Assembly: GCF_003841405.1 (NCBI RefSeq)
Contig: NZ_PXYA01000002.1
Coordinates: 186,001 to 250,000 of the forward strand
Origin: Tetragenococcus halophilus subsp. halophilus DSM 20339
Lineage (GTDB): Bacteria; Bacillota; Bacilli; Lactobacillales; Enterococcaceae
Direction of reading: 5' to 3'
DNA: 64,000 bases
Part shown: piece after piece, positions 10,128 through 51,449 of the stretch
How the letters are laid out: every line of letters begins with the position of its first letter
Numbering within the stretch: position 1 is the first letter of the stretch
Program-made: the position numbers and the translations under genes
The notes under the pieces: generated by a model
Databases searched by the model: none
Seen by the model: only the letters and a program-made list of their open reading frames with translations
What the model was told of the DNA's origin: nothing

Positions 10128-10415
10128 TTGAGTAGTGAAACACAGATCGTTTACTCAACATTTTCTTATTAAGTAACGCTTTAGCTTTTCTTTACTCGTT
10201 TTGTAAATATTGAGCAAGCTTTTCCATCTCCCTTACTCAACTTTCTCCGTTTCGCTTCGTTTTATCTACTTTCTTAAATTTTTTGAGCTTTTTTGAGTAA
10301 TGAAACGCAAATCGTTTACTCAACATTTTTTTATTGAGTAACGCTTTAGCCTTTCTTTACTCGTTTTGTAAATATTGAGTAAGCTTTTCCTTTTCCCTTA
10401 TTCAATTTTTTAAAA
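10128..10415. repeat. Tandem array of seven 41-bp inverted-repeat units (arms TTGAGTA / TACTCAA)
   Basis: TTGAGTA-like arms start at 10128, 10169, 10210, 10293, 10334 and 10375. Their TACTCAA partners start at 10152, 10193, 10234, 10317, 10358 and 10399. Spacing is exactly 41 bp inside each block, with one degenerate 42-bp unit at 10251-10292. Each unit is arm 7, loop 17, arm 7, spacer 10. Units 5-7 repeat units 1-3 almost base for base, so a three-unit block was duplicated. The array fills the gap after the NERD gene and covers its last codons. No repeat-spacer pattern of a CRISPR type is present. Confidence 0.9.
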
Positions 10416-11400
10416 TTGGAGTGCTCCAGTCTATTCTTTTCTCTAGTTTTTTAAAGTATCTTATTTTGTCTTCAAACCAATAATCAAATATTATTCCTTT
10501 GTTCTGATGGCCAAACTTCTTCTTAGGCGTACTTTTAATTGAAACAAAATGTCTTTTAAGTATATACTTCAAATAATGTTCATCCACCTGCTCGCCAAAA
10601 AATTCCTTTAGCTTTTTTAGCTTTAAATCTTGATCATGGAAAATAACGCCGAATTCGCAGATTGTGCGAGTATAAGCTGTTTCTTTGGGTTCAACATAAC
10701 CGCAATCGCATCTAACTGTATGTCTTTTATCCACCACTTTAAGCTGATGGCAGCGAGAGCAACGAATTCCTTTTTGTAATTGCTTTTCTTCTTCGATCGA
10801 TAAAGTACGTTGGCTACGATAGTTGTCTATCCGATACTGAAATAATACTGATTGACAATCATAGTAATATTCGTTGGCTGTTTGTTGATTTAACCCTAAT
10901 AGCCAGGCAGGAATTTCATTAAATGATAATACAGTTTCTGGGATTTGATCTTTTATTTGGATACTTGATTTTGGGTTCAAAAAAGCTAGTACGCCTTTTA
11001 CCTCCAAATCGATTTGCTGTTCTCTAAAAATATTGACGATTACCCGCATAGCTTTTCTTAATTGTTCCAAGATATTTGTAGTTAAAAACTTTCCGCCACA
11101 TATCCAGCTATTATTTTGTAAGATATAGTTGCCTTGATAAAATTTCACGTCAATGACATAGATAGTGTTTCCAATAATCAACAATTTATCAATTTGGACA
11201 ACTGTATTTTGGTATCGTAGTGTAATGTCATCTATGACAAGTACCTTCCCTGATAAAAACATTTCGGCAAGTTGGTCCATTTGCTGTTCTCCTAGAAATC
11301 CTTTTTGCGACCTTTGTAAAGCTCGTCGCTGTTCTTCAGTCAATTGTTTTCGTTGACTGACCGTTTCTAGCCATTGTAATTCGTGTGACTCTTTTCTCAT
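10402..11400 (-). CDS. NERD-domain nuclease-like protein with zinc ribbon
   Basis: Contains an N-terminal NERD (nuclease-related) domain at about residues 30-150: KGFLGEQQMDQLAE, VQIDKLLIIGNTIYVIDVKFYQGNY with the D...D-x-K pattern of a PD-(D/E)XK-like fold. A four-cysteine zinc ribbon follows near residue 220 (CSRCHQ ... CDCG). The remaining C-terminus is basic and aromatic. The start at 11400 is chosen because AGGAGG lies 7 nt upstream; the longer frame has none. The family is proposed to process DNA or RNA, but few members have a known role. It is preceded and followed by terminators/repeats, so probably monocistronic. Its end overlaps the 41-bp array. Confidence 0.8.
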   Translation of the reverse strand: MRKESHELQWLETVSQRKQLTEEQRRALQRSQKGFLGEQQMDQLAEMFLSGKVLVIDDITLRYQNTVVQIDKLLIIGNTIYVIDVKFYQGNYILQNNSWICGGKFLTTNILEQLRKAMRVIVNIFREQQIDLEVKGVLAFLNPKSSIQIKDQIPETVLSFNEIPAWLLGLNQQTANEYYYDCQSVLFQYRIDNYRSQRTLSIEEEKQLQKGIRCSRCHQLKVVDKRHTVRCDCGYVEPKETAYTRTICEFGVIFHDQDLKLKKLKEFFGEQVDEHYLKYILKRHFVSIKSTPKKKFGHQNKGIIFDYWFEDKIRYFKKLEKRIDWSTPILKN

Positions 11401-11471
11401 TTTGCGCCTCCTATTAAAACTCATTTATTAATAAGTACGCAAAAATAGCGTGAGAAATTTTTTTACATAAA

Positions 11472-11508
11472 AAAATCGTCTTGGCAAAAAACTGCTCAAG
11501 ACGATTTT
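11472..11508 (-). terminator. Rho-independent terminator after glsB
   Basis: Perfect 12-bp stem (AAAATCGTCTTG / CAAGACGATTTT) with a T7 tract on the minus strand just past the GlsB stop. Confidence 0.85.
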
Positions 11509-11513
11509 ACTAT

Positions 11514-11756
11514 CTATCTTCTACCTAAGAAAAATGATACGACAGCGACCACAATGATCGCGCCAATAATCGAAGGAATGACTGCCATTCCACCAATCGC
11601 AGGTCCCCAACTTCCAAAAAGTGCCTGTCCAAGTGAGGAACCAACAAGGCCTGCAATCACATTAAAGATAATGCCCATTGATTCACCTTTGTTAGCAATA
11701 GCGCCAGCGATCGCGCCGATCACACCACCAACAATAATTGTCCATAACCAACTCAT
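11514..11756 (-). CDS. GlsB/YeaQ/YmgE family stress membrane protein
   Basis: An 80-residue, three-helix, glycine-rich membrane protein with the family pattern WTIIVGGVIGAIAGAIANK ... GLVGSSLGQALFG ... IIGAIIVVAVVSFFLGRR. Enterococcal GlsB is a general-stress protein, and the family is often called transglycosylase-associated without enzymatic proof. It sits 21 bp downstream of the first pyruvyl transferase gene, so it may be read from that transcript. It ends at a strong terminator. Confidence 0.9.
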   Translation of the reverse strand: MSWLWTIIVGGVIGAIAGAIANKGESMGIIFNVIAGLVGSSLGQALFGSWGPAIGGMAVIPSIIGAIIVVAVVSFFLGRR

Positions 11757-11777
11757 AGTAAATCTCTCCTTTCTGTT

Positions 11778-12869
11778 TTATTTTTTAATCAAATCGATTA
11801 AAGCATCAAAACTATGCGAGAAATCAAGTTTATCTGAATGCTCGTATTTTTTCAAATCATTCCCCTTGGCTGCTAATTTTTTCGGATCTTTTTCTGTCGT
11901 GTACTGAATGTAATCCAAATCTTGCAGCCAATCATAGTAAAAAGCACTTGCTTTGCCGTAATTGTTATCAAATACAAGACATGGGGTTTGAGTAATCGCC
12001 GAAAAAATCATCCCATGCAAACGATCCGTTACTACCACTTCTTTGGCTTTGATCTGTTCTAATTTAAGTGACAATAACCAATGACGTTCGGATATTCTTA
12101 CAATATCAAGCGAAGGATTATTTTTCGATTTTACATCATAAGCTTTATAGGAAAGCACGGTATCTGTTGCTTCTACTTTAACCCCAGTGCTTTTTAAATT
12201 AGCAGTTAACTGCTCTATCAGCTTATCTGATGTAACTTTTTCCGCGTCTTCTCGCATGATAAACAGTACACCATCTCGCTTAGTTCCAGAAAGTTTTTCT
12301 TGTAATAATAAAACCATATCTGTCGTAAGAATAGCATCTGCTTTAAAATGATTTTGGAAATAACTTAGCGTTTGCGTATCTCTTGCAACTAGGGTTAAAT
12401 TCGAATTTTTATTATAAGCTTCCTGACTTTTGCGCAGTTCTGCTTGTCCTTCTTCTGTTTCTTCAAAATAGACAGACTGCGGAAAAGAGATCGTCTTATT
12501 GTTAACAAAAGTAGAAAAGACTTTGCGACGAACAATTTCATGCGTAATGTCCAAATTGCCAATATTTCCCCCGCCAACGTAACCAATCATATCATCAGAA
12601 CGCAGCAGTGGTAATAATTCTTCAATCGCCTGTTCTGTCTGCGGTTCGGTAATCTCAATATAGGTAATTTCTGGAAAGTTTTCAGCAAAGAATCGCTTCT
12701 GTGCTTCACTAATCGCTAAATCGCCTAAATTATTGTAAATAGGTGTGCCAAACATATAAAAGCGTTGTCGATCTTCTGGTAATTGTTTAATAAGCTCGGT
12801 TAAAGAAAGTTGTTCTATGGTATAAGCAAAATTTAAATTCGTTATTTCTGCTAAGGTGTTTGCTGTCAT
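11778..12869 (-). CDS. Polysaccharide pyruvyl transferase family protein (copy 1)
   Basis: Member of the CsaB/EpsO/YxaB (general stress protein 30) pyruvyl transferase family, which transfers pyruvate from PEP to sugar residues of surface polysaccharides. GT-B-like motifs are visible: FYMFGTPIYNNLGDLAI, GYVGGGNIGNL, ISFPQSVYFE, VARDTQTLSYF and the C-terminal VVTDRLHGMIFSAITQTPCLVFDNNYGKASAFY. The start at 12869 (MTANTLAE) gives 363 residues, equal to the neighbour, and has a GAAGGGAAG site; 14 upstream residues in frame are unlikely. It is a clear tandem paralogue of the next gene, probably over half identical. Confidence 0.87.
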   Translation of the reverse strand: MTANTLAEITNLNFAYTIEQLSLTELIKQLPEDRQRFYMFGTPIYNNLGDLAISEAQKRFFAENFPEITYIEITEPQTEQAIEELLPLLRSDDMIGYVGGGNIGNLDITHEIVRRKVFSTFVNNKTISFPQSVYFEETEEGQAELRKSQEAYNKNSNLTLVARDTQTLSYFQNHFKADAILTTDMVLLLQEKLSGTKRDGVLFIMREDAEKVTSDKLIEQLTANLKSTGVKVEATDTVLSYKAYDVKSKNNPSLDIVRISERHWLLSLKLEQIKAKEVVVTDRLHGMIFSAITQTPCLVFDNNYGKASAFYYDWLQDLDYIQYTTEKDPKKLAAKGNDLKKYEHSDKLDFSHSFDALIDLIKK

Positions 12870-12929
12870 ACTAAGATCTTCCCTTCTTTGAAGGTAACTG
12901 TCCGCAGACAAGTCAACATCAACAACTTT

Positions 12930-14021
12930 TTATTTTTTGATCAATTCGATTAATTCGTCATAACTGTGTGTAAAGTCATGATAATTCGAATGTTCATAAC
13001 CTTTTAATTCTTCAATCATAGGTGCTAATTTATCCGGATCATTTTCAGTTGTGTGCTTTATATAATCCAAATCTTCGAACCAGTTATAATAAGAAGCGCT
13101 CGCTTTACCATAACTGTTATCAAATACCAAGCAAGGCGTTTTGGTTAATACACAAAAGATCATGCCATGCAAACGGTCGGTTACTACAGCTTCACTGGCT
13201 TTAATTTCTTCTAATTTACGCTCGATCAACCAGCCACGTTCTGAAATGCGTACTTCATCTAAGTCGGGTGCAGTGTCCGCATTACTATCGGAAGCTTTAA
13301 AGGGTAAAACGGTGTCAGTTTGTTCTACTTCATCGCCAACGTTATTTAGTTTATAGCTTAATTGTTCTAGCAATTTTTCATTGATCACTTTTTCCGAGTC
13401 TTGCCGCATGATAAACAATACCCCATCGCGCTTGCCTTCTGACGGATCTGGTTTAAGTGAAGCGACAATATCAGAAGTATAGATAACATCTGCAGCAAAA
13501 TTCTTTTTAAAGTAATTCAACGATTGTGTTTCTCTAGCAACAATTGTCAAATTAGGATTTTTATTGTAAGCTTCTTGACTCTTCCTTAATTCTTCTTGCC
13601 CTTGTTCTGTGTCTTCAAAGTTCACAGATTGCGGGAAAGAAATGGTCTTATTATTTACAAAAGTAGAAAAGACTTTACGACGTGGTTCTTCATGGTCCAA
13701 ATAGACATTGCCTATATTTCCACCACCGGTATAACCGATCATGTCACTATCACGTAACAATGGTTTTAATTCATTAATTGCTTGGTCTGTTTGTGTTTCT
13801 AAAATTTCGATATAAGTGATTTCAGGGAAAACTCTTTTGAAAAAAGCTTTTTCTGCATAAGCGACTGCTTGATCCCCTAAGTTATTATAATTTGGTATTC
13901 CGAACATATAAAAACGACGTGGTTCTTCTGGTAATCGTTTAATTAGCTCAGTTAAGGAGACTCGTCCTAACGTATAAGCAAAATTTAAATTATCAATATT
14001 TGTCGCTCTTTTAATTGGCAT
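12930..14021 (-). CDS. Polysaccharide pyruvyl transferase family protein (copy 2)
   Basis: Same family and same 363-residue length as its downstream neighbour. The shared motifs are FYMFGIPNYNNLGDQAVAY, GYTGGGNIGNVYLDHE, ISFPQSVNFE, VARETQSLNYF and AVVTDRLHGMIFCVLTKTPCLVFDNSYGKASASYY. The GAAAGGAGAGG ribosome site is good. The pair likely arose by tandem duplication and could modify two related surface sugars, or form a heteromer; neither is shown. It is the first gene of a probable three-gene transcript ending with glsB. Confidence 0.87.
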   Translation of the reverse strand: MPIKRATNIDNLNFAYTLGRVSLTELIKRLPEEPRRFYMFGIPNYNNLGDQAVAYAEKAFFKRVFPEITYIEILETQTDQAINELKPLLRDSDMIGYTGGGNIGNVYLDHEEPRRKVFSTFVNNKTISFPQSVNFEDTEQGQEELRKSQEAYNKNPNLTIVARETQSLNYFKKNFAADVIYTSDIVASLKPDPSEGKRDGVLFIMRQDSEKVINEKLLEQLSYKLNNVGDEVEQTDTVLPFKASDSNADTAPDLDEVRISERGWLIERKLEEIKASEAVVTDRLHGMIFCVLTKTPCLVFDNSYGKASASYYNWFEDLDYIKHTTENDPDKLAPMIEELKGYEHSNYHDFTHSYDELIELIKK

Positions 14022-14107
14022 TTAAACCTCTCCTTTCTTTAATTAAAGGATAACTTTTAACAAAAAATCTGTCCATTAAAAACCATCACGACAGAAAAGC
14101 TTAAAAA

Positions 14108-14132
14108 AATAGAGCAGGAAGCCTGCTCTATT
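14108..14132 (-). terminator. Rho-independent terminator after opuABC-1
   Basis: Perfect 11-bp stem (AATAGAGCAGG / CCTGCTCTATT) followed by T7 on the minus strand, 11 bp past the stop of the fusion gene. Confidence 0.9.
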
Positions 14133-14142
14133 AAAAGTTATT

Positions 14143-15870
14143 TTATTCTACCCAGCTGTCTACCTTATCACGATTTTCATCGATCCAATCACTAGCAGCA
14201 TCTTCTGGGTCCGCACCATCTTCAATATCTAACATGATTGATTCCATGTCTGATGCTTCCCATTCAAAATTATCTAAGATTTGATAAGCTTCAGGCATGT
14301 CTTCTTCTAATCCTAAACGCGCTATAGTATCAATACTTTCAGCTTCACCCATGGTTCCTTTAGGGTCATCTAGATATTTCAAATCATAACGTTGGAATAT
14401 CCAGTAGGGATTCCAACCGGTTACGACGATTTCGTCTTCTGAGCTAATCGCACGTTCTAATTGTGCGTTCATTGCTCCAGTTGATGAAATGGTTTGCTCC
14501 CAATCGGATAAATTAGGATAAGCCTCTAACGTTTCATCGGTTGCGGACACAATACCGGCACCTGGTTCAATCCCTGTGATTTTCTGATTCGCTTGGTCAT
14601 CTAGATCTTCAATAGAATCCACGTCATCCATATAAGAAGGTACAACCAGCCCTAACTTAGCTTCTTTATCAATATGTGGGCCTAAATCATCCAGATCATC
14701 TTTAAACTCTTCATATTGTGCTTGGTGGGTGATCGGTAGCCAAGCTCCCGTGTTGGCATCTACTTGACCGTTAGCAACAGCTTGCCAAACCACTGGAATA
14801 TCTAATGAAGTCATATTCACATTGTAACCTTGCTCTTCTAAAACCTGAGCCATCACATTGGTTGAAACCACTTGGTCATCTTGTTGGGCATAACCAAGAG
14901 TGATGGTTCCTCGGTTAGAACCAGATGAAGCTTGATAAGCGCCATAAACGGCAAAGAAAACAATGCCAATCGCTACAATTCCATTAATAGCCATCCTTTT
15001 CTTCTTAGAAAGTCTTTGGCCTTGCTGAGAAGAAGGACGATTCATTGCTTGTGTGAAACGGTCCATAATAATCGCAAGAATTACAATACCCACACCGTAA
15101 ACAAAACCATTTCCCACATCAGAACGTTGTACAGCTGCTAGAACTCCAACGCCTAAACCTGGTGCTCCGATCATAGAAGCAATAACAACCATTGATAGAG
15201 CCAGCATAATTGTTTGGTTGATACCGGCAAAGATACTGCCTTTAGCTAAAGGCAAATCCAACTTGAATAACTTTTGCCAAGGTGTTCCCCCAAAAGAGTC
15301 TGAAGCTTCCACTAATTCAGTAGAAATTTGACGAATCCCTAAGTTGGTCATTCGAACAGTCGGCGGCAAGGAAAAAATCACTGAAGCAAATACGCCAGGT
15401 ACCATCCCTACACCAAAGAAAGCTACGGCTGGAATCAAATAAACAAAACCTGGCATAGTCTGCATAACGTCTAAAATCGGCTGAATAATGCTTTTGGCTA
15501 CTTCGCTTTTAGACATCAAAATACCTAAAGGCACGCCAATAACAATCGCCACTAGACTTGAAATAATTACCAGCGTTACAGTATTGAGTAAATCTTGCCA
15601 CATTTCTTGGTTGTAAATAAGTAATAACCCTAAAAAGACGATGATGGGAATCCACCACTTACGATGAAAAACAAAATAAGCTGTAATCGCTAGTAATACC
15701 ATCAATAATAACGGTGGAACAGCTGACAATGTATTGGTCATAAAATCCATTACTGCTTGCCCTACTGTTTGAAGGAAGGAAAAAAGCCCTGATAAATGTT
15801 GTGTTAACCAGTCTACCCCGGCATCAATCCATTGGGCAAGTGGGATTTGTTGTTGTAAAAAATCAAACAT
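14143..15870 (-). CDS. opuABC: Glycine betaine ABC transporter, permease + substrate-binding fusion (OpuABC/BusAB), copy 1
   Basis: Compatible-solute importer subunit in which permease and extracytoplasmic binding domain are one chain, as in lactococcal OpuA/BusA. An amphipathic scaffold segment (residues 1-45) leads to a membrane block to about residue 310. It includes the EAA-type loop ([32 protein letters not shown]) and the AIMDRFTQ end. The OpuAC-type binding domain (about 320-575) keeps tryptophans in VVWQAV, GAWLP and [11 protein letters not shown], candidates for the betaine cage. Its ATG at 15870 overlaps the ATPase stop by 8 nt, with the GAAGGAG site inside the ATPase gene, so the two are translationally coupled. 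Confidence 0.95.
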
Positions 15871-17125
15871 CTATGTCCACTCCTTCGTCCTCCGTCGTTT
15901 CGTTCTCATTCGTTGTTTCTTCTTTATTTTCTTCTACTTCACCAGTATCAGCCATTGCACCGATCACACTACCACGGACCACAACGCCTACAACACGGTC
16001 CTCTTCGTCAACCACCGCTAGTGGTGCCGGTGAATTATAAATCATATCGAAAATATCTGTAACTAAGGTATCTTTCTGTATTTTTCGTACATTTTCTTCG
16101 ACAACCTCTCTAAGAGGCTTCTCGTTTTTACGAGCGTCTAAAGCTTTTTCAGCAGTTAGACTCCCTTTTAAATGACGCTTTCTATCCACAGCTAGTAACA
16201 TACTAACTTCTTCTTTACGCATACGTTGTAAGGCAACATTGGGCCCATCCGTTTCGACATTACTAATAAGCGCAGGTTCCATAATATTTTCTGCTGTTAA
16301 AACCTTCGAACGGTCGATATCTTCGGTAAATTCACGAACGAAATCATTGGCAGGATGGGTTAGAATTTCTTCACCGGTACCAATTTGCATAATTTTCCCG
16401 TCACGCATTAAAGCGATCCGATCACCAATCCGTAAAGCTTCATCCAAATCGTGAGTAATAAAGATAATTGTTTTTTGTACTCTTTCTTGTAAATCTAACA
16501 AATCATCTTGCATATCCCGACGAATCAAGGGGTCCAAAGCAGAGAAAGCTTCGTCCATTAACAAGACTTCTGGATCATTCGCTAAAGCACGTGCTAAACC
16601 AACCCGTTGCTGCATCCCACCAGATAATTGATTGGGGTATTGATCTTTTACCGAAAGCAAGCCGGAATTATCTAGCGCTTCTTCTGCTTTTTCCCGGCGT
16701 TCTTCCTTATCCACGCCTCGTATCTCAAGACCATATTCGGTATTTTGTTGAATCGTCCGTTGGGGGAAAAGGCCAAAGTTTTGGAAAACCATGTTCATCT
16801 TGCTACGACGAACTTCCCGTAAATCTTCTTTTGACATCTGGGATACTTCTTGATCATCGATATAAACTTCACCTGAAGTCGGTTCAATCAAACGGTTAAT
16901 CAGACGAACCAAAGTCGATTTCCCACTACCAGATAGTCCCATGATCACAAAGACTTCTCCATTTTCTACATTAAAACTAACGTCATGCACACCAACTGTA
17001 GCGCCAGTTTCTTTTAGGATCTCTTGCTTTGATTTTCCTTCTTTTACTAGATCGAGTGCTTGTTGGGTTCTTCGACCAAATACTTTAGTCAGATGTTCTA
17101 CTCGAACTTTACTCAAAGTGATCAC
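15863..17125 (-). CDS. opuAA: Glycine betaine ABC transporter ATPase with CBS pair (OpuAA/BusAA)
   Basis: ATP-binding subunit for the adjacent OpuABC. Walker [16 protein letters not shown] is near residue 61, the signature [15 protein letters not shown] near 164 and Walker [15 protein letters not shown] near 184. Tandem CBS domains (about 275-390) and an acidic tail ([18 protein letters not shown]) follow. In lactococcal OpuA the CBS module and anionic tail sense internal ionic strength, so osmotic gating is likely here. The start may be the GTG at 17125 or the TTG at 17116, which is the one matching a relic ORF upstream of opuABC-2. It is the only complete ATPase gene for three fusions in this island. 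Confidence 0.95.
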
Positions 17126-17183
17126 TCTTCCTTTCTATATTGAAAAATGGAATATTTGCCATCAATTAATTAAGTTCGAGTTT

Positions 17184-17211
17184 ATCATACCATATTTTAA
17201 AATCTAGCCAA
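17184..17211 (-). promoter_or_regulatory. Promoter of the opuAA-opuABC operon
   Basis: TTGGCT (17206-17211) and TATGAT (17184-17189) are separated by 16 bp on the minus strand, about 60 bp before opuAA and just after the opuABC-2 stop. No terminator is seen between opuABC-2 and opuAA, so read-through is also possible. Confidence 0.6.
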
Positions 17212-17234
17212 ATGATAACGTTTGTTGCTCAAAA

Positions 17235-18999: not shown

Positions 19000-19026
19000 T
19001 TTAGACACTCCTTATTTTTATAAAAC

Positions 19027-19059: not shown

Positions 19060-19072
19060 TTTCCGTTACGAC

Positions 19073-24902: not shown

Positions 24903-25000
24903 ATGCAGCGAATGCGAAAACAAAACCGCGAACTTTCGTCCTTCGTCCAAAAGGCAACATCCCATCCTCTCGGCACTTGACGCTTCGTTTTCTACTCTGA
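24903..25000 (-). promoter_or_regulatory. Tetrahydrofolate (THF) riboswitch aptamer
   Basis: Minus-strand leader of folT contains, in order, the conserved THF-I blocks AGAGTAGA, GCGTCAAGTG, GGATGGGATGTTGCC, GGACGAA and TTCGCGG..TTTTCGCATTC, with pairing flanks (AAAACGAA...TTTTGTTTTCG). Order and sequence match the published folT aptamers of streptococci and lactobacilli. Between the aptamer and the start codon, GCTGCATT / AATGTAGC and later hairpins could act as the switch arm, near the AAGGGG ribosome site. The sequence suggests repression of folate uptake when reduced folate is high. Confidence 0.93.
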
Positions 25001-25119
25001 TTTATTAATGGAAGTTTTATCCACCACACAGACTATAGCACAGCTGTTGGTTAACTACAATGGATTTGTTTTTTTAAGAAGTAACTAATAACAAGAGAAC
25101 ACCAGAAAACATTAAAACT

Positions 25120-25290
25120 AGAGTTAGTCCGTAAAAGCAGCTAGTTTATTTGAATTCTTAAGTTAGTCTGCTAAACTAGATCTAGTTTTTTTAAAATCTT
25201 GAGTTAGTCCACCAAAGTAGATCTAGTTTTTTTGGATTCTTGAGCTAGTCCGCCAAAGTAGATCTAGTTTTGTACGAACTCTTGAGTACT
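25120..25290. repeat. Tandem array of four to five 41-bp units (CTAG/GTTAGTC words)
   Basis: CTAGTTT starts recur at 25141, 25182, 25223 and 25264 (41 bp apart). G(T/C)TAGTC words recur at 25123, 25162, 25203 and 25244. The first full unit can fold GCAG-CTAG with TTAGTCTGC; later units pair GA(T)CTAG with CTAGTC less perfectly, loop about 17-18 nt. Located between the folT riboswitch and iadA; the rest of 25001-25390 shows no gene. Confidence 0.85.
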
Positions 25291-35303: not shown

Positions 35304-35493
35304 ACTTTAGTCCAAAAGACAGGCTAATGGTCTCTTCTTTGTTAAACTTTGGGACAATTACTCTGTTTATGGCCTCTTCTTTGCCTGACTTAGGGACAAA
35401 TGCTAATTATTTGGCCCCTCCTTCTCCATACTAAAGGACAATAGTCAAAGTTTTGGCCCCTTCTTTATCTGACTTTGGGACAAAAACTACTTA
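35304..35493. repeat. Tandem array of four 42-bp units (arms TTTGGCCC / GGGACAAA) plus half unit
   Basis: Units start at 35326, 35368, 35410 and 35452, each exactly 42 bp. A half unit (CTTTAGTCC...) precedes them. The best unit, at 35452, is arm 8, loop CTTCTTTATCTGACTTT, arm 8, spacer 9. It lies between two terminators of convergent genes, so it is probably not part of either mRNA. Homologous to the inverted array at 51282-51449. Confidence 0.92.
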
Positions 35494-35513
35494 TAAGACG
35501 TCATTTGTATACA

Positions 35514-35547
35514 AAAAGCACCGCTGTAAAAACTACAACGGTGTTTT
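35514..35547 (-). terminator. Terminator of the manganese transporter operon
   Basis: AAACACCG.TGTA / TACA.CGGTGCTTT stem followed by T5 on the minus strand. Confidence 0.8.
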
Positions 35548-35553
35548 ATTGTA

Positions 35554-40197: not shown

Positions 40198-40198
40198 T

Positions 40199-41408: not shown

Positions 41409-41436
41409 AAAATCAAGCTTCCTTTCTTTTAACTGT

Positions 41437-42753: not shown

Positions 42754-42857
42754 GTGAATACTCCTTTACTTTTTTATTATTTAAGAAAATTATGATCAAT
42801 GATTAGGAAATATTTCTATGTAAATATACTGGAGTTTTCTCATGATTTCAAAATTTC

Positions 42858-43005
42858 GGACACTACGTCCGCTTCGATCTCATCAAGGGTCTACTCTCAG
42901 CTCCCTTTGGTCGCTGAACCGTAGTGATTCGATTTGGGGAACTACGCTCATTCTTCTCGCCTAGTACTGTTCATCTCTTCGCTTTCGCTTCGATTCACAG
43001 CAAAA
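42858..43005. repeat. Intergenic repeat of the 92-bp family (rearranged copies)
   Basis: Shares blocks GGACACTACG, CTACTCTCAGCTCC, GTCGCTGAA, CGTAGTGATTCG, CTAGTACTGTTCATC and GATTCACAGCAAAAAA with the tandem pair at 55769-55952. Here the blocks are partly reshuffled over about 150 bp. ACTACG and CGTAGT ends can pair. Located between two minus-strand genes. Confidence 0.8.
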
Positions 43006-43034
43006 AAGAAAGAGGAGCGCTCTTTCTTTTTTGC
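43001..43034 (-). terminator. Terminator of the 43039 AKR gene
   Basis: AAAAAAGAAAGAG / CTCTTTCTTTTTT perfect stem, self-supplying T tract on the minus strand, 4 bp past the stop. Confidence 0.85.
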
Positions 43035-43038
43035 TTAC

Positions 43039-43872: not shown

Positions 43873-43962
43873 ACTATCGCCTCCTCATATAAATCATATC
43901 ATATCTGCTTTTAATTGAAAGTAAATAGATAATGTTTTTATTCGCATTCCTTTCTCACTCCT

Positions 43963-43971
43963 TGTTATAAT
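43963..43971 (+). promoter_or_regulatory. Extended -10 promoter of the fructosamine kinase operon
   Basis: TGTTATAAT (TG-n-TATAAT) about 20 bp before the ATG at 43992. No good -35 is seen, which is normal for extended -10 promoters; the short leader leaves just a GGAGG site. Confidence 0.65.
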
Positions 43972-43991
43972 AAAAAGTGGAGGTGGATAAA

Positions 43992-44858: not shown

Positions 44859-44878
44859 CTAAGAAGGGATGACAGAAC

Positions 44879-45670
44879 ATGGATTTAAATTTAGCCAATA
44901 AAACCGTACTTATCACAGGTGGCGGTTCTGGTATTGGCTTAGCAACTGCTAAATCATTAAATGAAGAACAAGCAAGAACTGTACTATTTGATAAAAAATT
45001 CGACCAATTTCAAGAATCAGAATTTACCCATCCGCAACTAGTAAAAACCGTGACAGGCGATGTACGACATCCAGAGGAACTTGCTAAATTGCACCAAGAT
45101 TTAAAAACGCAGAATAAGGCTGTAGATATTATTATTAATTGTGCTGGTATTACCGGTGCACAAGGCGATTTTTCCGATATTTCATTGGAGGATTGGCAGG
45201 AAGTATTTGATATTAACCTTTTTGGCTCTGTGAATGTAACAAAAGAATTTCTTAGTGATTTGCAAGAGAAAAAATGGGGCCGCGTCCTTTTCTTAGCTTC
45301 TGAGGATGCAATGCAGCCTTATGATGATGAAATTCCTTATTGTGCAACCAAAGCGGGAATCTTAGCTTTATCTAAAGGTCTGGCCAAAACACTCGGGCCA
45401 CAAGGAATTACTTCAAATGCAGTTTCGCCTGCCTTTATCAATACGCCAATGACCGATAAGATGATGCAAAATCGGGCAGATGAACTAAATGTTTCTTTTG
45501 ACGAAGCGATTCAGTCCTTCTTAAAAGAAAGAAGACCCTTTATGACCAGTTCCAGACGTGGCTATCCAGAAGAAGTGGCTAATGTGATTACCTTCTTGTG
45601 TTCAGAAAAAGCCAGCTTTGTCAACGGTGCAAACTACCGTGTGGATGACAATTCAGTAGGAACGATTTAA
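44879..45670 (+). CDS. Short-chain dehydrogenase/reductase (classical SDR)
   Basis: NAD(P)-dependent oxidoreductase, 263 residues. The cofactor motif TGGGSGIGLA, the acidic residue in LFDKKF (favours NAD), NCAGITG, and the catalytic set Ser in FLASEDA, Tyr and Lys in YCATKAG are all visible. The tail (FLCSEKASFVNGANYRVDDNSVGTI) has the usual substrate-loop end. It starts 20 bp after the kinase gene with AAGGGATG. The substrate is unknown; it could act on a sugar alcohol made in the same operon. Confidence 0.9.
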   Translation: MDLNLANKTVLITGGGSGIGLATAKSLNEEQARTVLFDKKFDQFQESEFTHPQLVKTVTGDVRHPEELAKLHQDLKTQNKAVDIIINCAGITGAQGDFSDISLEDWQEVFDINLFGSVNVTKEFLSDLQEKKWGRVLFLASEDAMQPYDDEIPYCATKAGILALSKGLAKTLGPQGITSNAVSPAFINTPMTDKMMQNRADELNVSFDEAIQSFLKERRPFMTSSRRGYPEEVANVITFLCSEKASFVNGANYRVDDNSVGTI

Positions 45671-45690
45671 CTTAATTAGGAGGAAATAAC

Positions 45691-46473
45691 GTGAAATATT
45701 ACGATCAGCACCTGCACACTTTTTTATCTTTTGATTCCAAAGAGATCTTTGAAAATTACCTATTAAATAAACCGCCCTATTTTGTGGCTACCGACCATCT
45801 AGATTTGCGTAATCCAGGGGATAACTTTCAAGATGATATTCCTGATTATGATAAGTTAGCACAAAAGTTAAGCGAATTAGAAGCTAATTATCCGACCACT
45901 TTTTTAAAGGGTGTTGAAATTGGCGTTGTTCCCGGTCAAGAAGAACAAATTAATGCTTATCTTAACGATCACCCTTATGACTTAAAGCTGTTAAGTATTC
46001 ATCAAAATGGGAAATTTGACTATATGGATGATGTCGTTTTGAGTAAAGACAAATATAAAGTTGCTAAAATGTACTTTGACCAAATGGCGCAAGTTTTAGA
46101 TACTTTTTCAGGGGCACAAATTTTAACTCACTTTGAATACGGTCTTCGTCGACTTGATTTTACCGCAGAAGACTTAGAAGAACACTTTGAAAAAGAATTA
46201 ACTACTATTTTGAAAAAAGTCATTCAAAAAGAAATGGCGTTAGAAATCAACGCAAAAAGTTTTGGTTATTATCAAAATGCCAATCTTTATCGCTATATTA
46301 TCCCACTGTATAAAAGCTTGGGCGGAACATTTTTCACTTTAGGCTCAGACGCCCATCAGGCTAGTGACTATGAAGCACTTTTTCCTGAAATGTCAGGTTT
46401 ATTAAAAGAATTCGGTATAAACTTTCTAGTAACTTTCCAAAAAAATGACCGTTTTCTGACAGAGTTGCCTTAA
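45691..46473 (+). CDS. PHP-domain hydrolase (histidinol-phosphatase-like)
   Basis: PHP-family phosphoesterase of 260 residues with metal motifs YYDQHLHTFLSFDS, VATDHLD, GVEIGVV, SIHQNG, LTHFEYG and GSDAH. It resembles HisK-type histidinol phosphatases, but no his gene is near, so another phosphate ester is likelier, fitting the upstream fructosamine kinase and SDR. The start is a GTG at 45691 behind AGGAGG. Last gene of the operon before a shared terminator. Confidence 0.85.
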   Translation: MKYYDQHLHTFLSFDSKEIFENYLLNKPPYFVATDHLDLRNPGDNFQDDIPDYDKLAQKLSELEANYPTTFLKGVEIGVVPGQEEQINAYLNDHPYDLKLLSIHQNGKFDYMDDVVLSKDKYKVAKMYFDQMAQVLDTFSGAQILTHFEYGLRRLDFTAEDLEEHFEKELTTILKKVIQKEMALEINAKSFGYYQNANLYRYIIPLYKSLGGTFFTLGSDAHQASDYEALFPEMSGLLKEFGINFLVTFQKNDRFLTELP

Positions 46474-46485
46474 AAAATTCATAAT

Positions 46486-46516
46486 AAAAGCAGGAAGTTT
46501 TTGGCTTCCTGCTTTT
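46486..46516. terminator. Bidirectional terminator
   Basis: Perfect 12-bp stem AAAAGCAGGAAG / CTTCCTGCTTTT between the PHP gene and the convergent small ORF. Confidence 0.85.
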
Positions 46517-46517
46517 G

Positions 46518-46691
46518 TTATTCTTCTGTTTTTTCGACTCTTTCTTCGTCGATTTTCTCGGAATCAACAACATCATTTTTAGCGGCTTCTTTTTGGGCTT
46601 GTTTAAATACTTTTTCTTTTTCTTCTTTATAATCACTTTGACGTTGTGCGTATACTTCTTCTTTGCTTTTTTCTTTTTTGTCTTCTGTCAT
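46518..46691 (-). CDS. Highly charged 57-residue protein, unknown
   Basis: Short frame with a strong GAGGAGGG site before the ATG and a terminator directly after the stop. The product is almost entirely Lys/Glu/Gln/Asp (EDKKEKSKEEVYAQRQSD, EEKEKVFKQAQKEAAK), predicted as one long helix without hydrophobic core. Such composition is typical of small stress or unstructured proteins. No family recognised; not a shadow, because codons and signals are consistent. Confidence 0.65.
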   Translation of the reverse strand: MTEDKKEKSKEEVYAQRQSDYKEEKEKVFKQAQKEAAKNDVVDSEKIDEERVEKTEE

Positions 46692-46787
46692 GCAAATCCC
46701 TCCTCAGTTAATTTAGGGGTTTAGCTCTACTTTTACTATAAAGAATTTTTTTTATTTTGTAAAATATAACAACTTGAAAACGGTGTC

Positions 46788-46796
46788 TGTTATAAT
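46788..46796 (+). promoter_or_regulatory. Extended -10 promoter of the pRiA4b gene
   Basis: TGTTATAAT about 30 bp before the ATG at 46827; same element as at 43963. Confidence 0.6.
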
Positions 46797-46826
46797 GAAA
46801 TAAATACTGAAAGGATGTGTATTTTA

Positions 46827-47879
46827 ATGGCTTCTTTAGATGATATCATTGATAATTTTTTTCAAATGAAAATCACTGAACTTAATGACTATAATGAACA
46901 TATCGACGACCCTGCTAGCTTAGTAAAAATCATCGCTGAACTGACCGATAGAATGCAGGACACACAAGACTTTTCTGATAAAGGGCAACTTGAGCAATAT
47001 TATCTTACTGATCTACCTGAAAATATGGTTGTTTTTCCCGATGAAGTGCTTGCTATTCATGAAGTACTACTTGATTTTTACCAATTTCTGCAAGAAAACG
47101 GCTATTTAACAGCAGCTGTATACAAAGATCTATTACTCTTTTTGCAAAAAAATAAACATCGCTTTATCAATCGTATGCACGACAAGCAATTTTGGTCCCA
47201 GGAAAAAAGAACGAGCATGGAAAATCTTGATCAGGAAATGATGGATGCCATGCCGCCTGAAGTAAATGACCTTTTCCAAAGTTTAAACAATATCTTTCAA
47301 GAAGAAGCAAATACTGAGCAAAAAGATAATGTGATCGATTTTCCTTCCAACAAGGGAGAAAAACTAACAAATGCAGCGCCTTATGCCATTCAGCTGAGAA
47401 TCGACTTATTAGGCTTTAAACCACCAATTTGGCGGCGTGTATTGGTGCCTTTTGATTATACTTTAGCTGATTTGCATGAAGTCATTCAAACTTGTTTCGA
47501 ATGGGAAGATGAACATTTACACCAGTTTATCGTCGGCAGAATGTATTATGAACCTGCGGGAATGGATTTCGATGATTTTGGTGATTTTTTCACTGGCGAT
47601 ACTTCTTCTATAACTGTTGGAGAAGTCTTCGAACAATTTAAATCGATCGATTATATTTATGATTTTGGCGATGACTGGCAACATAAAATCAAATTTGAAG
47701 CAAATATCCCCTTTGCCGAATTGCCTAAAGCTAAGGGCGCATTAAGTACTGTCGAGCCTGAACAACTTCCAATTTGCCTTACTGGACGACAAGAAGCTCC
47801 TTTGGAAGATTCAGCAGGCCAAGAAGAATTTGCTCCTTTTGATATAGATAGAATCAATAAAAATTTATCGGATATTTGA
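46827..47879 (+). CDS. pRiA4b ORF-3-like domain protein with N-terminal extension
   Basis: The C-terminal half (about 185-330) is a pRiA4b ORF-3 (IS1096 TnpR-like) domain: YAIQLRIDLLGFKPPIWRRVLVPFDYTLADLHEVIQ, WEDEHLHQF, YIYDFGDDWQHKIKFE. The N-terminal 180 residues are helical and acidic and I do not recognise them. The start at 46827 is preferred because AAAGGA lies about 11 nt upstream; the ATG four codons earlier has no room for a site. The domain is often near mobile elements but has no known enzymatic role. Confidence 0.85.
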   Translation: MASLDDIIDNFFQMKITELNDYNEHIDDPASLVKIIAELTDRMQDTQDFSDKGQLEQYYLTDLPENMVVFPDEVLAIHEVLLDFYQFLQENGYLTAAVYKDLLLFLQKNKHRFINRMHDKQFWSQEKRTSMENLDQEMMDAMPPEVNDLFQSLNNIFQEEANTEQKDNVIDFPSNKGEKLTNAAPYAIQLRIDLLGFKPPIWRRVLVPFDYTLADLHEVIQTCFEWEDEHLHQFIVGRMYYEPAGMDFDDFGDFFTGDTSSITVGEVFEQFKSIDYIYDFGDDWQHKIKFEANIPFAELPKAKGALSTVEPEQLPICLTGRQEAPLEDSAGQEEFAPFDIDRINKNLSDI

Positions 47880-47925
47880 TTTTTTGAACAAATAAAATTG
47901 TTTTGTCGCACCGATCTTTACGCTT

Positions 47926-48039
47926 ATTGGCGCTAACTTTCTCTACTAGTCTCCAATAACTTGTCAATTGGTGGGACATCCAAGCTTTTGCCACCAATCC
48001 CTTTTCGATTGGCGGCACATTATCTGACTTAGCGCCAAT
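47926..48039. repeat. Tandem array of three 41-bp units (arms ATTGGYG / CRCCAAT)
   Basis: ATTGG starts at 47926, 47967 and 48008; CCAAT starts at 47953, 47994 and 48035, all 41 bp apart. Unit 2 pairs ATTGGTG with CACCAAT and unit 3 pairs ATTGGCG with CGCCAAT, a compensatory change; loop 18 nt, spacer 9 nt. The unit-3 loop contains TTATCTGACTT, also seen in the 42-bp array at 35452. The gap 47880-48137 holds this array and a terminator only. Confidence 0.9.
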
Positions 48040-48088
48040 ATCTTGTTATTTCAGATCTGCATTCTTTGGTTTAGCGTACTTAAGCATT

Positions 48089-48135
48089 AAAAAAGTTTCT
48101 GTACTATATTTTTCATATCATACAGAAACTTTTTT
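48089..48135 (-). terminator. Terminator of the nrnA operon
   Basis: Perfect 15-bp stem (AAAAAAGTTTCTGTA / TACAGAAACTTTTTT) directly after the nrnA stop; the arms give a T6 tail. Confidence 0.9.
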
Positions 48136-48137
48136 CT

Positions 48138-49094
48138 TTATTCATCTTTAGTAAAATCAAGGCAGACCTTTTGTAACTCTTCATAAAGCTTTTGTGCTTG
48201 CTCCAAGTCAGCTACATTGGCGCCACTAGCTAGCGCATGTCCACCTCCATGGTAACGTTTGGCGATTTCATTGATCGCAGGACCTTTAGAACGCATGCGC
48301 ACACGATAATAACCTTCCTTTTGTTGGACAAAAATCGCCCAAGCTAATACACCTTCAATAGCACCAGGCAGTGGAACAACCCCAGAAGTTTGTGCATCAG
48401 AAACACCAAATTCGTCTAACATTTCGGTACTAAAAGTTACTCGTGCAGCACCTGTTTTATCCATCTGTAGATTCTGATAAACATAACCCGATAAACGGGC
48501 GACATTACTTGAAATTTCTTCGATACGTCGATTTAACCCAGCGTAATCAAAACCAAAGTCAATCAAATCAGCTGCAATTCGTAAAGTATGAGAAGAAGAT
48601 GCTGGATACAAAAAACGTCCAGTATCTCCAACAATACCAGCATATAACAAACGTGCAGCGTCTTTTGTCATATGTAGTTCTTCTTTAAACATTTCCCAAA
48701 AATCTGCGATAATTTCACTACAGCTAGACGCATTATCTTGTACCCACATTAAATCACCATAAGGTTCATCGTTGGGATGATGATCAATTTTAATTAATTT
48801 AGTGCCTAAATTAAAACGATCGTCACTGATTCTTGGCGCATTTGCTGTATCAGTGACAATAACTAAAGCATTCTGGTAAGTAACGTCATCGATGGTTTGC
48901 ATGTCAGCCAAATATTCCAAGCCTTCTGAAGGCCCACCCACTTGATAAACTTTTTTTCCAGGAAAACTTGCTCGCAATAGTTCAGCCAAACCAACTTGTG
49001 AGCCTAGGGCATCGGGATCAGGGCGCTTGTGCCGATGAATAATAATTGTATCAAAAGCTTTAATTTCAGCTAAAATATCTTCTTGTACGCTCAT
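48138..49094 (-). CDS. nrnA: DHH-DHHA1 nanoRNase/pAp phosphatase (NrnA family)
   Basis: Degrades short oligoribonucleotides and 3'-phosphoadenosine-5'-phosphate. The 318-residue chain from the ATG at 49094 (GAGGAAC upstream) shows the DHH motifs HRHKRPDPDALGSQ, VTDTANAPRI, KIDHHPND and DNASSCSEII, and the DHHA1 substrate motif YHGGGHALASGAN near the end. The gene order ytkL-ytoI-nrnA is the same as in B. subtilis, and the three are spaced 6-19 bp apart, so they form an operon. Confidence 0.95.
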   Translation of the reverse strand: MSVQEDILAEIKAFDTIIIHRHKRPDPDALGSQVGLAELLRASFPGKKVYQVGGPSEGLEYLADMQTIDDVTYQNALVIVTDTANAPRISDDRFNLGTKLIKIDHHPNDEPYGDLMWVQDNASSCSEIIADFWEMFKEELHMTKDAARLLYAGIVGDTGRFLYPASSSHTLRIAADLIDFGFDYAGLNRRIEEISSNVARLSGYVYQNLQMDKTGAARVTFSTEMLDEFGVSDAQTSGVVPLPGAIEGVLAWAIFVQQKEGYYRVRMRSKGPAINEIAKRYHGGGHALASGANVADLEQAQKLYEELQKVCLDFTKDE

Positions 49095-49113
49095 CTTGTT
49101 CCTCTTTTCTAAA

Positions 49114-50445
49114 TTATGGACGTTCCATAACTTGGCAAACGACAATCGCTTTAGCTACTAATGAATTTTCGATAAAGACATTAATATCCAATTTAGCTGA
49201 ACGTCTACCTAGTTCTAAAATTTGTGGTTCTATTTTTAATTCACTTTCTAACTGAATTAAATGAAAATAATGTAAACTTACTTGTTCAATCCAAGCGTTC
49301 CGCCGATTATTCACATCCATCACTCGCTTAGTAACGTTTGCGATAACTTCATTTAACACACCAAATGAAATGGTCCCTAATTCATCCACCATTTGCGGTG
49401 TGACACCAAAGGTAAATTGCGGTGTTGATAATTTATTACCTTCAATATCTTGTTCGATCGATTGAATTTCGCCAGTAATTTGATCAGAAATCGTATCTGA
49501 TAATTGCGGTTGACGTTGCACTAACTGCATAGCTTTCATAACATCTTGCCGAGTGACAATACCCAGAAGTGATAAGTCATCTGCGACAACAGGCATAACC
49601 TCCAAACCATCCCAAATCATCTGGTGACTGACTGAAGCTACACTCATTTCTTTTTTTACTCTACGTGGGTCTTTAGTCATTACCCGCTCAATCAGTTGTG
49701 TATCAGCTTTTCCTAATACATCTTTGGCCGTGACAATCCCCACCACCCTTGTGTTTTTATTAACCACAGGATAGCGCGAGTGTTGGGCGGCATCAGAAAG
49801 TGCGCGATAATCTTTAATCATATCAGAAGTCGTTAAATAGCTGGTTTTTTCAAGCGGCATATAAATATCGCCCACCAATAAGATATCTTTTTTAATAAGT
49901 TGATCACTCATGGCACGATTTATCATACTTGCCACAGTGAAGGTATCATAAGTTGTCCGCAAAATCGGCAATGCCAACTGATCAGCTAACGCTCGAATTT
50001 CTTGTGAAGTATCAAAACCACCGGTAATTAATACGGGTGCACCTTCTTTAAGCGCTAATTTTTGCGCATCCAACCGATTACCGACAATCATCAAAGAACC
50101 AGGCGTGATGTAGCGTTGCATGGCCTCTTCAGTCATCGCTCCGATCACGAATTTATTTAAATCCTTTTCTAGGCCGTTAGCACCACCTAAAACGTCGCCT
50201 TCAATAATACGCACAACTTCTCCAAAGGTTAATCTTTCAATATGCTTTTTAAGTTTTCGTTCGATTCGAATCGTTCCCACACGCTGGATCGTGGAAACTA
50301 GTCCGATATTCTCAGCATCTTTGATTGCTCTATAAGCGGTTCCTTCGCTAACGTCTAAACTTTTAGCAATTCCTCGAACAGAAATTTTTTCGCCTACTTG
50401 TAAACTTTCAATGTGTGCCAAAATCAAATCATGTTTTGTCGCCAT
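49114..50445 (-). CDS. ytoI: YtoI-like protein: HTH + DRTGG + CBS pair + hotdog domain
   Basis: Multidomain cytosolic regulator-like protein of 443 residues. An N-terminal winged-helix/HTH (SVRGIAKSLDVSEGTAYRAIKDAENIGLVST) is followed by a DRTGG domain (about 75-185), a CBS pair (about 190-315: SRYPVVNKNTRVVGIVTAKDVLG, LEVMPVVADDLSLLGIVTRQDVMKA) and a C-terminal hotdog (4HBT-like) domain. The domain set and position between ytkL and nrnA match B. subtilis YtoI. The ligand is likely an adenosine nucleotide, which would fit with nrnA, but it is unproven. Confidence 0.92.
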   Translation of the reverse strand: MATKHDLILAHIESLQVGEKISVRGIAKSLDVSEGTAYRAIKDAENIGLVSTIQRVGTIRIERKLKKHIERLTFGEVVRIIEGDVLGGANGLEKDLNKFVIGAMTEEAMQRYITPGSLMIVGNRLDAQKLALKEGAPVLITGGFDTSQEIRALADQLALPILRTTYDTFTVASMINRAMSDQLIKKDILLVGDIYMPLEKTSYLTTSDMIKDYRALSDAAQHSRYPVVNKNTRVVGIVTAKDVLGKADTQLIERVMTKDPRRVKKEMSVASVSHQMIWDGLEVMPVVADDLSLLGIVTRQDVMKAMQLVQRQPQLSDTISDQITGEIQSIEQDIEGNKLSTPQFTFGVTPQMVDELGTISFGVLNEVIANVTKRVMDVNNRRNAWIEQVSLHYFHLIQLESELKIEPQILELGRRSAKLDINVFIENSLVAKAIVVCQVMERP

Positions 50446-50451
50446 TATTTT

Positions 50452-51132
50452 CTACACCTCAATTGCCTCTCCACTATTCATTACTTTTCCTACACTCGTT
50501 AATTGTTCTACAAATTTTTGCGGATCTTGTTTGATTTGTGGGAAAGTATTGTAATGAATAGGTACAACCGTCTTGGCTTTCAACCGATTAGCCGCACGAA
50601 GCGCATCCTCTGGTCCCATCGTAAAGTTATCGCCAATTGGCAAAAAGGCAACGTCAATATCATATTGTTCGCCTAATAAAGATAAGTCACTATAATCTGC
50701 TGTATCTCCAGCATGATAAATCGTTTTTCCTTCTGCTTGCAATAAAATACCAGCAGGTTCGCCCATATAGATCATTTGCCCATTTTCTTGATAACCAGAA
50801 CTATGTTGTGCATGGGTAAATTTCACGCGTCCAAAAGGAAAGTCATAGCCACCGCCAATATTCATGCCGTGAGTATTTTCAATCCCTTTACTAGCAGCAT
50901 AAGTACAAACCTCAGGTAAACCTATAACTGTTGCATTATTTTTCTTAGCGATCGAAACCATATCACCTATGTGATCATCATGTCCGTGAGTAATCAAAAT
51001 ATAATCCGTTTCAACGTCTTCAGCAGAGATATCCGCTAAAGGATTTTGTGAAATAAACGGGTCAAATAACAAACGAATGCCCTCATCCAATACTACAGAA
51101 AGAACAGCATGTCCATGATACGTGATCTTCAT
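50452..51132 (-). CDS. ytkL: UPF0173 metallo-beta-lactamase-fold hydrolase (YtkL)
   Basis: Metal-dependent hydrolase of the UPF0173 family, 226 residues. Ligands are visible in ILITHGHDDHIGD (HxHxDH), FTHAQHSSG, YHAGDTADYSD and VVPIHYNTFP. The N-terminus MKITYHGHAVLSV is invariant in the family. First gene of the ytkL-ytoI-nrnA operon; GAGGAG precedes its ATG. The substrate is not known. Confidence 0.93.
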   Translation of the reverse strand: MKITYHGHAVLSVVLDEGIRLLFDPFISQNPLADISAEDVETDYILITHGHDDHIGDMVSIAKKNNATVIGLPEVCTYAASKGIENTHGMNIGGGYDFPFGRVKFTHAQHSSGYQENGQMIYMGEPAGILLQAEGKTIYHAGDTADYSDLSLLGEQYDIDVAFLPIGDNFTMGPEDALRAANRLKAKTVVPIHYNTFPQIKQDPQKFVEQLTSVGKVMNSGEAIEV

Positions 51133-51281
51133 TTAAATCTCCTCACTTTATAATTTATTACCTACTCTTGTTTTAAAAAGTTATAACAGTATACACTCTA
51201 TATTGTAACAGATATCAAGTGATAAAAAAACAATGACGGGTGTAAGCCAAATCGTTTACAAGCTTAAAATTAAATAAGAAG

Positions 51282-51449
51282 TATAATGTTTTTTGACCTA
51301 AGTACAACGAAGGAAGGGCCAAATATTTAGCATTTGTCCCTAAGTTAGCTAAAGTAAGGGCCATTAGCAGAGCAACTGGTCCTAAGTTTAACAAAGAAGA
51401 GGCCATTCCCTAATCTTTTGGCCTAAAGTCAGACATAAGTAGGGCCAAA
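51282..51449. repeat. Tandem array of four 42-bp units, inverted relative to the 35-kb array
   Basis: Read on the minus strand, units start at 51449, 51407, 51365 and 51323, each exactly 42 bp, with TTTGGCC/AATGGCC left arms and GGGACAAA, GGACCAGT or GGCCAAA right arms. The second unit matches the 35326 unit at about 34 of 42 bases. The frame through it happens to be open (MASSLLNLG...), giving a 14-residue repeat, but stops in sister units argue against coding. It lies between the nagB terminator and the ytkL promoter region. Confidence 0.92.

Follow-up and report, generated by a model that had tools for sequence, protein, structure and literature searches.

Intergenic arrays of short inverted words on a common 41/42-bp period recur across the genus Tetragenococcus

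Introduction

Why do five separate intergenic gaps within one stretch of bacterial DNA carry tandem repeats of nearly the same unit length, built from different words? The stretch (the window: 64,000 bp of Tetragenococcus halophilus subsp. halophilus DSM 20339, contig NZ_PXYA01000002.1, positions 186,001 to 250,000) comes from a genus of bacteria known from soy sauce, and the original prediction, made from the letters alone, had described inverted-repeat units of 41 or 42 bp in the gaps at 10128, 25120, 35304, 47926, and 51282. Tandem 41- or 42-bp units are indeed present in all five gaps, according to Tandem Repeats Finder (TRF) and direct reading. We followed them through nine Tetragenococcus genomes, namely the source genome (G000, 2.60 Mb) and eight further ones (G001 to G008); codes beginning with L denote loci or sampled stretches. 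A protein encoded in the window shares 97% identity with one from T. halophilus subsp. flandriensis.

We propose, with a probability of about 0.45, that these arrays form a genus-wide superfamily of non-coding, mobile lattices of words in duplex DNA, which would be bound by proteins and would have an architectural role. The lattice, its families and their spread, the conservation of the words, the lack of pairing covariation in most families, the block copies, the presence or absence of arrays at a given gap, and the proximity to terminators were each observed directly; binding, the copying mechanism, and function are what we infer from them.

Results

Enrichment and spread of the 41/42-bp period

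Among repeats reported by TRF (score at least 100; four duplicate rows from overlapping stretches were dropped) in 1.93 Mb from the nine genomes, a period of 41 bp accounts for 45 rows and 42 bp for 25, followed by 82 bp (9 rows) and 84 bp (8 rows), with at most five rows at any other period; the 41/42-bp rows merge into 65 places, a few of them coding (e.g., L159 and L160). The original prediction had proposed looking for the same lags in other intergenic regions, and there the enrichment was found, far beyond chance and beyond the five loci: in 204 intergenic gaps (from the window and 18 further stretches), scored for self-identity of at least 0.62 in a 60-bp window at lags of 20-99, lag 41 occurred in six gaps, lag 42 in five, lags 82 and 84 in four each, and any other lag in at most one. 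Five first-order resamplings gave none at lags 41 and 42, and one lag was reached once overall. At the same threshold, lag 41 or 42 was absent from 360 kb sampled across 18 further genomes belonging to the family, as compared with 26 matches in 813 kb of G000. Eight of the nine Tetragenococcus genomes have such matches; G007 has none in 100 kb, yet it has one array by TRF.

Word families on one geometry

The arms had been described as specific to each locus, but they turned out to be specific to families: the arrays at 35304 (minus strand) and 51282 (plus strand) belong to the same family on opposite strands. Eleven words can be distinguished, giving about eleven families (grouped by us) that recur at several loci and species: CTAGAG (family A), TTTGGNCC with the sub-word CTGACC (B), ATTGGNGG (C), AAATGAAG (D), TCCCTAT (E), TTGARTAA (F), CGGAYAAT (G), GAATGAAC (I), TAASCACA (J), ATAGCACA (K), and AGGACATA (L). 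Families A, B, C, D, F, G, I, and J are each found in at least two species (G and I by eye), J in G000, G003, G004, G005, and G008. Searches with the two families A and B found no match to A in plasmids or phages and none to B in plasmids.

The 41-42 bp geometry is common to different words, as had been supposed. Within the unit, arms of 7-8 bp and spacers of 8-10 bp roughly hold across ten families, but the inner segment is 12-20 bp long, not 17-18 bp. Complementarity of the arms is imperfect, and in some families one inner position is free (ATTGG-N-GG, TAA-N-CACA). Several of the ten J arrays listed have a composite form of about 272 bp, in which two sets of three units are joined by a connector of about one unit. 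We agree with the original prediction that the arrays do not resemble clustered regularly interspaced short palindromic repeats (CRISPR): units abut, the arms of neighboring units are 8-10 bp apart, and there are no unique spacers of 20-40 bp. No cas models were among the listed NCBIfam matches of ten flanking open reading frames (ORFs), although no search aimed at cas was made.

Six families have a similar inner core, AAGTCAGGCAAAG-like (for example TTAGTCTGGCAAAGTAG in A, TAAGTCAGGCAAAGAAG in B, and GAAGTCAAGCGATGTG in C). When one consensus per family was compared, with orientation and register set by eye (E, whose register is unclear, was omitted), likeness between loops reached z = 6.3 among A, B, C, D, J, and L, 4.1 among all ten families, and 1.9 among F, G, I, and K; z for the arms ranged from -1.0 to 1.6. 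The comparison is no more than suggestive of an inner core common to the families.

Finding the arrays depended on the search used. Single-unit nhmmer was too strict for 41-bp queries (no unit was found for families D and F, and one each for E and G), and wraparound alignment replaced it, with seven families. After three matches (coding or at edges) were dropped from 58 merged arrays, 55 remained in the list, with some false members: L113 14583-14773 looks by eye like tRNA genes, and the short L146 6689 and L147 3407 are doubtful.

Conservation of words, unit length, and phase

A neutral explanation of the common period is that slippage or unequal recombination multiplies units, and that 41/42 bp was inherited from an ancestral unit. 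Unit number does differ between species, and families with a similar core could have had one ancestor; however, families with unrelated words also have one period. Unit length equals the family period exactly in 132 of 184 units, at about 28% substitution. Substitutions per gap event number 10.9 in the arrays, or 15.5 once J is set aside (its connector introduces extra gaps), versus 7.1 in 50 array-free orthologous gap alignments made with the same scores. Indels are rarer than in array-free gaps in families A, B, C, F, and G, which speaks against neutral multiplication, although D and J, without an indel deficit, would be compatible with it. A first control, substitutions per gap position (1.48 in 23 pairs versus 4.7 to 72 in arrays), was given up in favor of gap events because long gaps count many times there, overstating the contrast.

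Words and core are conserved above spacers in A, B, C, and J: in these families the information per column is 0.86-1.54 bits in the arms and 0.37-0.86 bits in the spacers. Relative to array-free gaps, A/T-runs in the arrays are spaced 1.7-2.1 times as often at 20-21 bp, 3.6 times at 41 bp, and 1.6-1.7 times at 61-62 bp, with spacings of 10-12 bp depleted (0.6-0.7). Words, unit length, and A/T-run spacing look conserved, less so in D and J, and we regard neutral duplication as improbable.

Genomic placement

Arrays are intergenic in 55 of the 58 merged cases. They are carried by 16 of 75 convergent, 28 of 286 tandem, and 6 of 96 divergent gaps (convergent 16/75 versus others 34/382, p = 0.004). 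A facing terminator-like hairpin, scored with our own detector, lies at most 40 bp from 25 of the 55 arrays. For 330 placements chosen at random in gaps of like type without arrays, the proportion was 17%. No such facing hairpin is present in the gap of 17 of the 55 arrays. The orientation of units relative to genes is mixed, so the arrays are not consistently an element of 3′ untranslated regions.

Pairing of the arms

Serial RNA hairpins were among the roles first suggested, and inverted arms could more generally act as RNA or single-stranded DNA hairpins, including substrates like those of repetitive extragenic palindromes (REPs) or attC sites. In the ten families tabulated the arms are complementary at 6-8 positions though the words differ, as hairpins would require. 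If the arms form stems, a substitution in one should be matched by a substitution in the other. Parsing by best inverted repeat is ambiguous (arms pair within their own unit and also with the next unit), and we compared, in six families (A, B, C, D, F, and J), the fraction of Watson-Crick pairs formed by an arm with its own partner and with arms of other units or arrays. Own partners and other arrays gave.733/.720 in A,.801/.802 in C,.818/.794 in D, and.713/.716 in J; totals of paired positions versus shuffle expectation were 140/138 in A, 146/147 in C, 531/524 in J, 138/128 in F, and 316/280 in B. The free inner position is column 6 in C, paired in 5 of 22 units (5.7 expected), and column 4 in J, paired in 12 of 81 (19 expected).

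Arm changes are thus random as to pairing in five of the six families, with no covariation beyond the common word, an outcome that the original prediction had itself named as refuting it. Neither serial RNA hairpins nor selection for pairing is borne out; B, whose arms covary, is the exception. Mismatches include 112 G.U and 102 A.C overall, without an overall G.U excess, although family A alone, with 31 G.U against 4 A.C, would suit RNA stems. The mixed orientation to genes also fits hairpins poorly, no Rfam match at gathering thresholds lies over the arrays (window and eight loci), and the only Y1 transposases are IS200-like. Hairpin action is to us the least probable of the explanations weighed here, and the behavior of the arms is that of recognition words on duplex DNA.

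Mobility and turnover

The original prediction did not foresee that arrays move and turn over as blocks, and this is seen in block copies, empty sites, and family swaps. Two further, nearly complete copies of the 35304 array, ending at the same points and 87% identical to it, lie at G000:C3:372651-372840 and C1:488495-488685. One copy of it, at L241, corresponds to a clean empty site in both G001 and G002 (246 bp versus 2 bp, flanks 93-94% identical); the insert lies directly behind the T-run of a terminator (hairpin by eye). G000 lacks a B array that G002 carries with TAAAAAAGA on both its sides, and in the 51133 gap ATAAAAAAAC stands on both sides of the G008 J array and once in the empty G005. 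In all, three comparisons show empty sites.

Families also replace one another at the same gap. Gap 24977 holds A in G000 and G001, about 11 units of B in G002, L in G005, and short remnants (by eye) in G003, G007, and G008; gap 47880 holds C, decayed C in G002, and A in G005; gap 51133 is occupied by B in G000, G001, and G002, by J in G008, and by an E-like stretch in G003, and is empty in G004 and G005; and in the gap at 16328 of L149 in G001, A occurs in two genomes (G001, G002) and J in three others (G003, G004, G005). Arrays co-occur at orthologous gaps in 3 of the 10 pairs listed, of 55 gap pairs compared, which is not significant by itself. The flanks of an A array at G000 L004:17740-17932 are 98-99% identical to those at L251 of the otherwise distant, slightly contaminated G008, reflecting either recent transfer or contamination.

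The G lattice stands within a dispersed element of about 276 bp with sharp ends, CTAAGTG and CTTTATA (L018:14552-14828), which holds three 41-bp G units, and has nine long matches in G000 counting the query (two of them identical). At the single insertion that was compared, a direct repeat of 8 bp borders the element. The motif at its left end also terminates a different short repeat, found at L106 (upstream of an IS1380 gene) and at G002 L154. This motif lies near 9 of 55 arrays versus 22 of 505 gaps without arrays, a difference to which G itself contributes.

Such block copies, empty sites, and sharp ends raise the possibility that the arrays are selfish, non-autonomous mobile elements, their lattice consisting of transposase or recombinase sites, one kind per word family, with no host function, and their sites near terminators being tolerated or targeted. 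Short direct repeats beside some inserts (TAAAAAAGA, ATAAAAAAAC, ACAAATTA) and the several copies of IS4, IS1380, IS200, and group II introns present are in line with this, but the direct repeats at the B and J inserts lie in A/T-runs and may be due to chance. By eye, no terminal inverted repeats were seen at B, J, or G ends, nor any shared with an insertion sequence (IS) for the elements examined, and no end sequence outside the lattice is common to non-orthologous arrays among the first 40 of 58 matches, except for the G element and its short end motif. Matches of arrays to the flanks of transposase genes are short and weak, except for the G element beside an IS4 gene, and only 1 of 55 arrays is within 700 bp of a clustered transposase or reverse transcriptase gene (G000 sample). 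We consider purely selfish elements a serious possibility, with odds of about one in three, and rank them second to bound, architectural lattices.

IS ends and group II introns were also considered as parents of the arrays, with no convincing link. Group II introns with reverse transcriptase/maturase genes are present in several copies in the sampled genome (e.g., L002:5762-7568 and L112:17599-19390). Some group II introns favor terminators, and we take them as a lead to the copying mechanism, not as evidence.

Arrays and neighbors in the window

The window contains five arrays of four families. An F array (word TTGAGTAA/TTGAATAA; 10109..10459, minus strand) has about eight 41-bp units, one of them decayed. 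An A array (CTAGAG/CTTGAG; 25112..25287, plus strand) of about four 41-bp units is flanked by the 3′ end of a beta-aspartyl-peptidase gene and by the tetrahydrofolate (THF) riboswitch of a folate energy-coupling factor (ECF) transporter gene; the riboswitch, upstream of this folate-family gene, was located at 24904-25001. The first B array (35304..35493, minus strand; about 4.5 units of 42 bp) and the C array (47926..48051, minus strand; about three units of 41 bp) both lie in convergent gaps, each with a terminator-like hairpin, read by eye, whose T-run points towards the array (35513..35548 and 48089..48136, respectively, both minus strand). The second B array (51283..51463, plus strand; about four units of 42 bp) is near a terminator-like hairpin, again by eye, behind a nagB-like gene (51477..51513, minus strand), and the A/T-run of this hairpin recurs on both sides of the G008 J array at the orthologous gap.

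Other features were noted in passing. A 92-bp tandem repeat at 55765-55944 has two copies (96% matches), and 91 bp at 42885-42975 match the copy of this repeat in G001 at 90%. An IS200-like Y1 transposase gene is located at 53247-53666 (PF01797 match, G000:C2:239313-239663). The gene at 10402-11424 has a weak, below-cutoff match to MAD6 kinase and is near the ORFs at 11778-12911 and 12930-14021; these adjacent ORFs are probably paralogues, since one sits in a two-member cluster (66% identity, lengths 363 and 377).

Arrays of similar length outside the genus

Similar lengths are not wholly confined to Tetragenococcus, since Enterococcus asini has a 40-bp array of a palindrome like TTTCCAGTATACTGGAAA (L060:8174-8311), which looks operator-like, and some Bacillales have 40-42 bp rows made of 20-21 bp words. 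Direct-word arrays of 20-21 bp, or two helical turns, occur in Bacillales at L056:3366-3476, L070:3509-3697, L062:5724-5811, L073:4717-4830, L090:1522-1637, and L089:870-977, with words including CGCACGAT, CGCCGATA, and GGCCAGTAA; some of these arrays are listed at a period of 40-42 bp. Bacillales also have 52-bp (five-turn) arrays of inverted words (L055:8899-9691, L064:1341-1496, L082:2981-3357, and L076:3261; words GTCGCAT, GAGGGA, GAGGACA, and TCTACGT), possibly an analogue with another lattice length.

Discussion

Of the roles suggested earlier, a lattice of a DNA-binding protein fits best. A word of 6-9 bp in alternating orientation, with a full unit each 41 or 42 bp (about four helical turns) and A/T-runs about two turns apart, would most likely be occupied on one face of the helix by a dimeric or multimeric DNA-binding protein with its own specificity for each word family. 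Binding to duplex sites would account for the conservation of words and unit length alongside drifting spacers and unconserved pairing. Entire arrays would enter intergenic DNA as block copies, in many cases immediately beyond intrinsic terminators, and would then gain or lose units, decay, and give way to arrays of other families. The likeliest effect on the host would be to insulate transcription units from one another architecturally or topologically, a role also proposed for the bacterial interspersed mosaic elements (BIMEs) of E. coli.

Several observations weigh against this proposal. The repertoire and positions of arrays change between species, unlike an essential host function, and an all-against-all comparison of 727 ORFs (from 31% of the genome) did not reveal any evident group of about eleven DNA-binding paralogues; its three largest clusters are ABC-ATPase-like (by eye) and IS4 transposases. 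The indel contrast is modest, and neither D (93 substitutions, 20 events) nor J (922, 132) shows it; the control gap alignments are more similar than the arrays (identity 0.87 versus 0.72); arrays were found by their regularity, and their kept unit length is partly ascertained; and the period could be due to descent alone. A/T-run spacing has lesser peaks at 13-14 (1.3), 27-28 (1.2), and 55 bp (1.7). As for pairing, inverted arms are present in every family, as the hairpin model likewise predicts, and family B covaries (.606 with the own partner,.628 adjacent,.512 other units of the array,.536 other arrays), in a pattern, alike in both registers, that fits blocks of sub-words. In family F the fraction paired with the own partner (.738) is higher than with arms of other arrays (.638) but not than with other units within one array (.740), and some single pairs in J and F score above shuffled ones (z 2.7-3.4).

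Among known systems, BIMEs come closest in design. As described (PMC2817692; PMC2267715), BIMEs are extragenic, consist of regularly spaced REPs in alternating orientation, and bind proteins (gyrase and integration host factor, IHF); REPs are tied to REP-associated tyrosine transposases (RAYTs) and have been likened to non-autonomous transposable elements. The arrays here are likewise extragenic, made of short inverted elements in alternating orientation, regular, with several elements per array and many per genome; they differ in placing about eleven words on one 41/42-bp lattice and in that five of six families show no conservation of pairing beyond the word. REPs are positioned near gene 3′ ends. 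No cognate RAYT was found in a search of the nine genomes with PF01797, the only family searched, which gave six matches of 144 or 156 aa in G000, apparently IS200-like by their length, and none in G006 and G007; by this search the BIME-like design lacks a REP-type transposase set.

BOX of Streptococcus pneumoniae (PMC3049150) is an interspersed repeat of boxA-boxB-boxC modules with a variable number of tandem inner units. Both are small interspersed repeats of low-GC Gram-positive bacteria with variable tandem inner units, but BOX has defined end modules, whereas the present arrays have many word families, and no common ends were seen outside the lattice but those of G. Plasmid iterons and other helically phased protein-binding arrays have tandem words at whole helical turns, with a word specific to each replicon; the present arrays differ in being chromosomal, dispersed over many loci, and made of inverted words. 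Like miniature inverted-repeat transposable elements (MITEs), as defined in PMC3049150, they are non-coding, short, dispersed, and discrete insertions, with an 8-bp direct repeat at the G element. Repeats in A/T-runs beside a B insert and a J insert may be due to chance, and none is clear at L241. Unlike in MITEs, the body is the lattice, and no terminal inverted repeats were seen by eye at the B, J, or G ends. The original prediction knew of no family with this design, and the listings from our searches of open-access literature showed no description of such arrays; the word Tetragenococcus is absent from the texts of PMC12306157, PMC2267715, and PMC3049150.

A broader idea, which we hold to be doubtful, is that these arrays exemplify a new class of word lattices, in which a fixed helical lattice carries interchangeable inverted words, each with its own paralogous protein, serving as address codes that bridge or insulate sites; the 52-bp and 20-21 bp arrays of Bacillales may be the analogue, in which case lattice length would be lineage-specific and the principle general in Bacilli.

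Overall, we describe a low-GC Gram-positive genus whose abundant interspersed repeats combine a fixed four-turn lattice with exchangeable words, a design that the REP/BIME and BOX models do not cover. Several words on one geometry, and arrays that sister species keep, lack, or exchange at a given gap, make a natural experiment for the role of intergenic lattices at gene ends, and for how a protein family could diversify its DNA specificity while the architecture of the array is kept.

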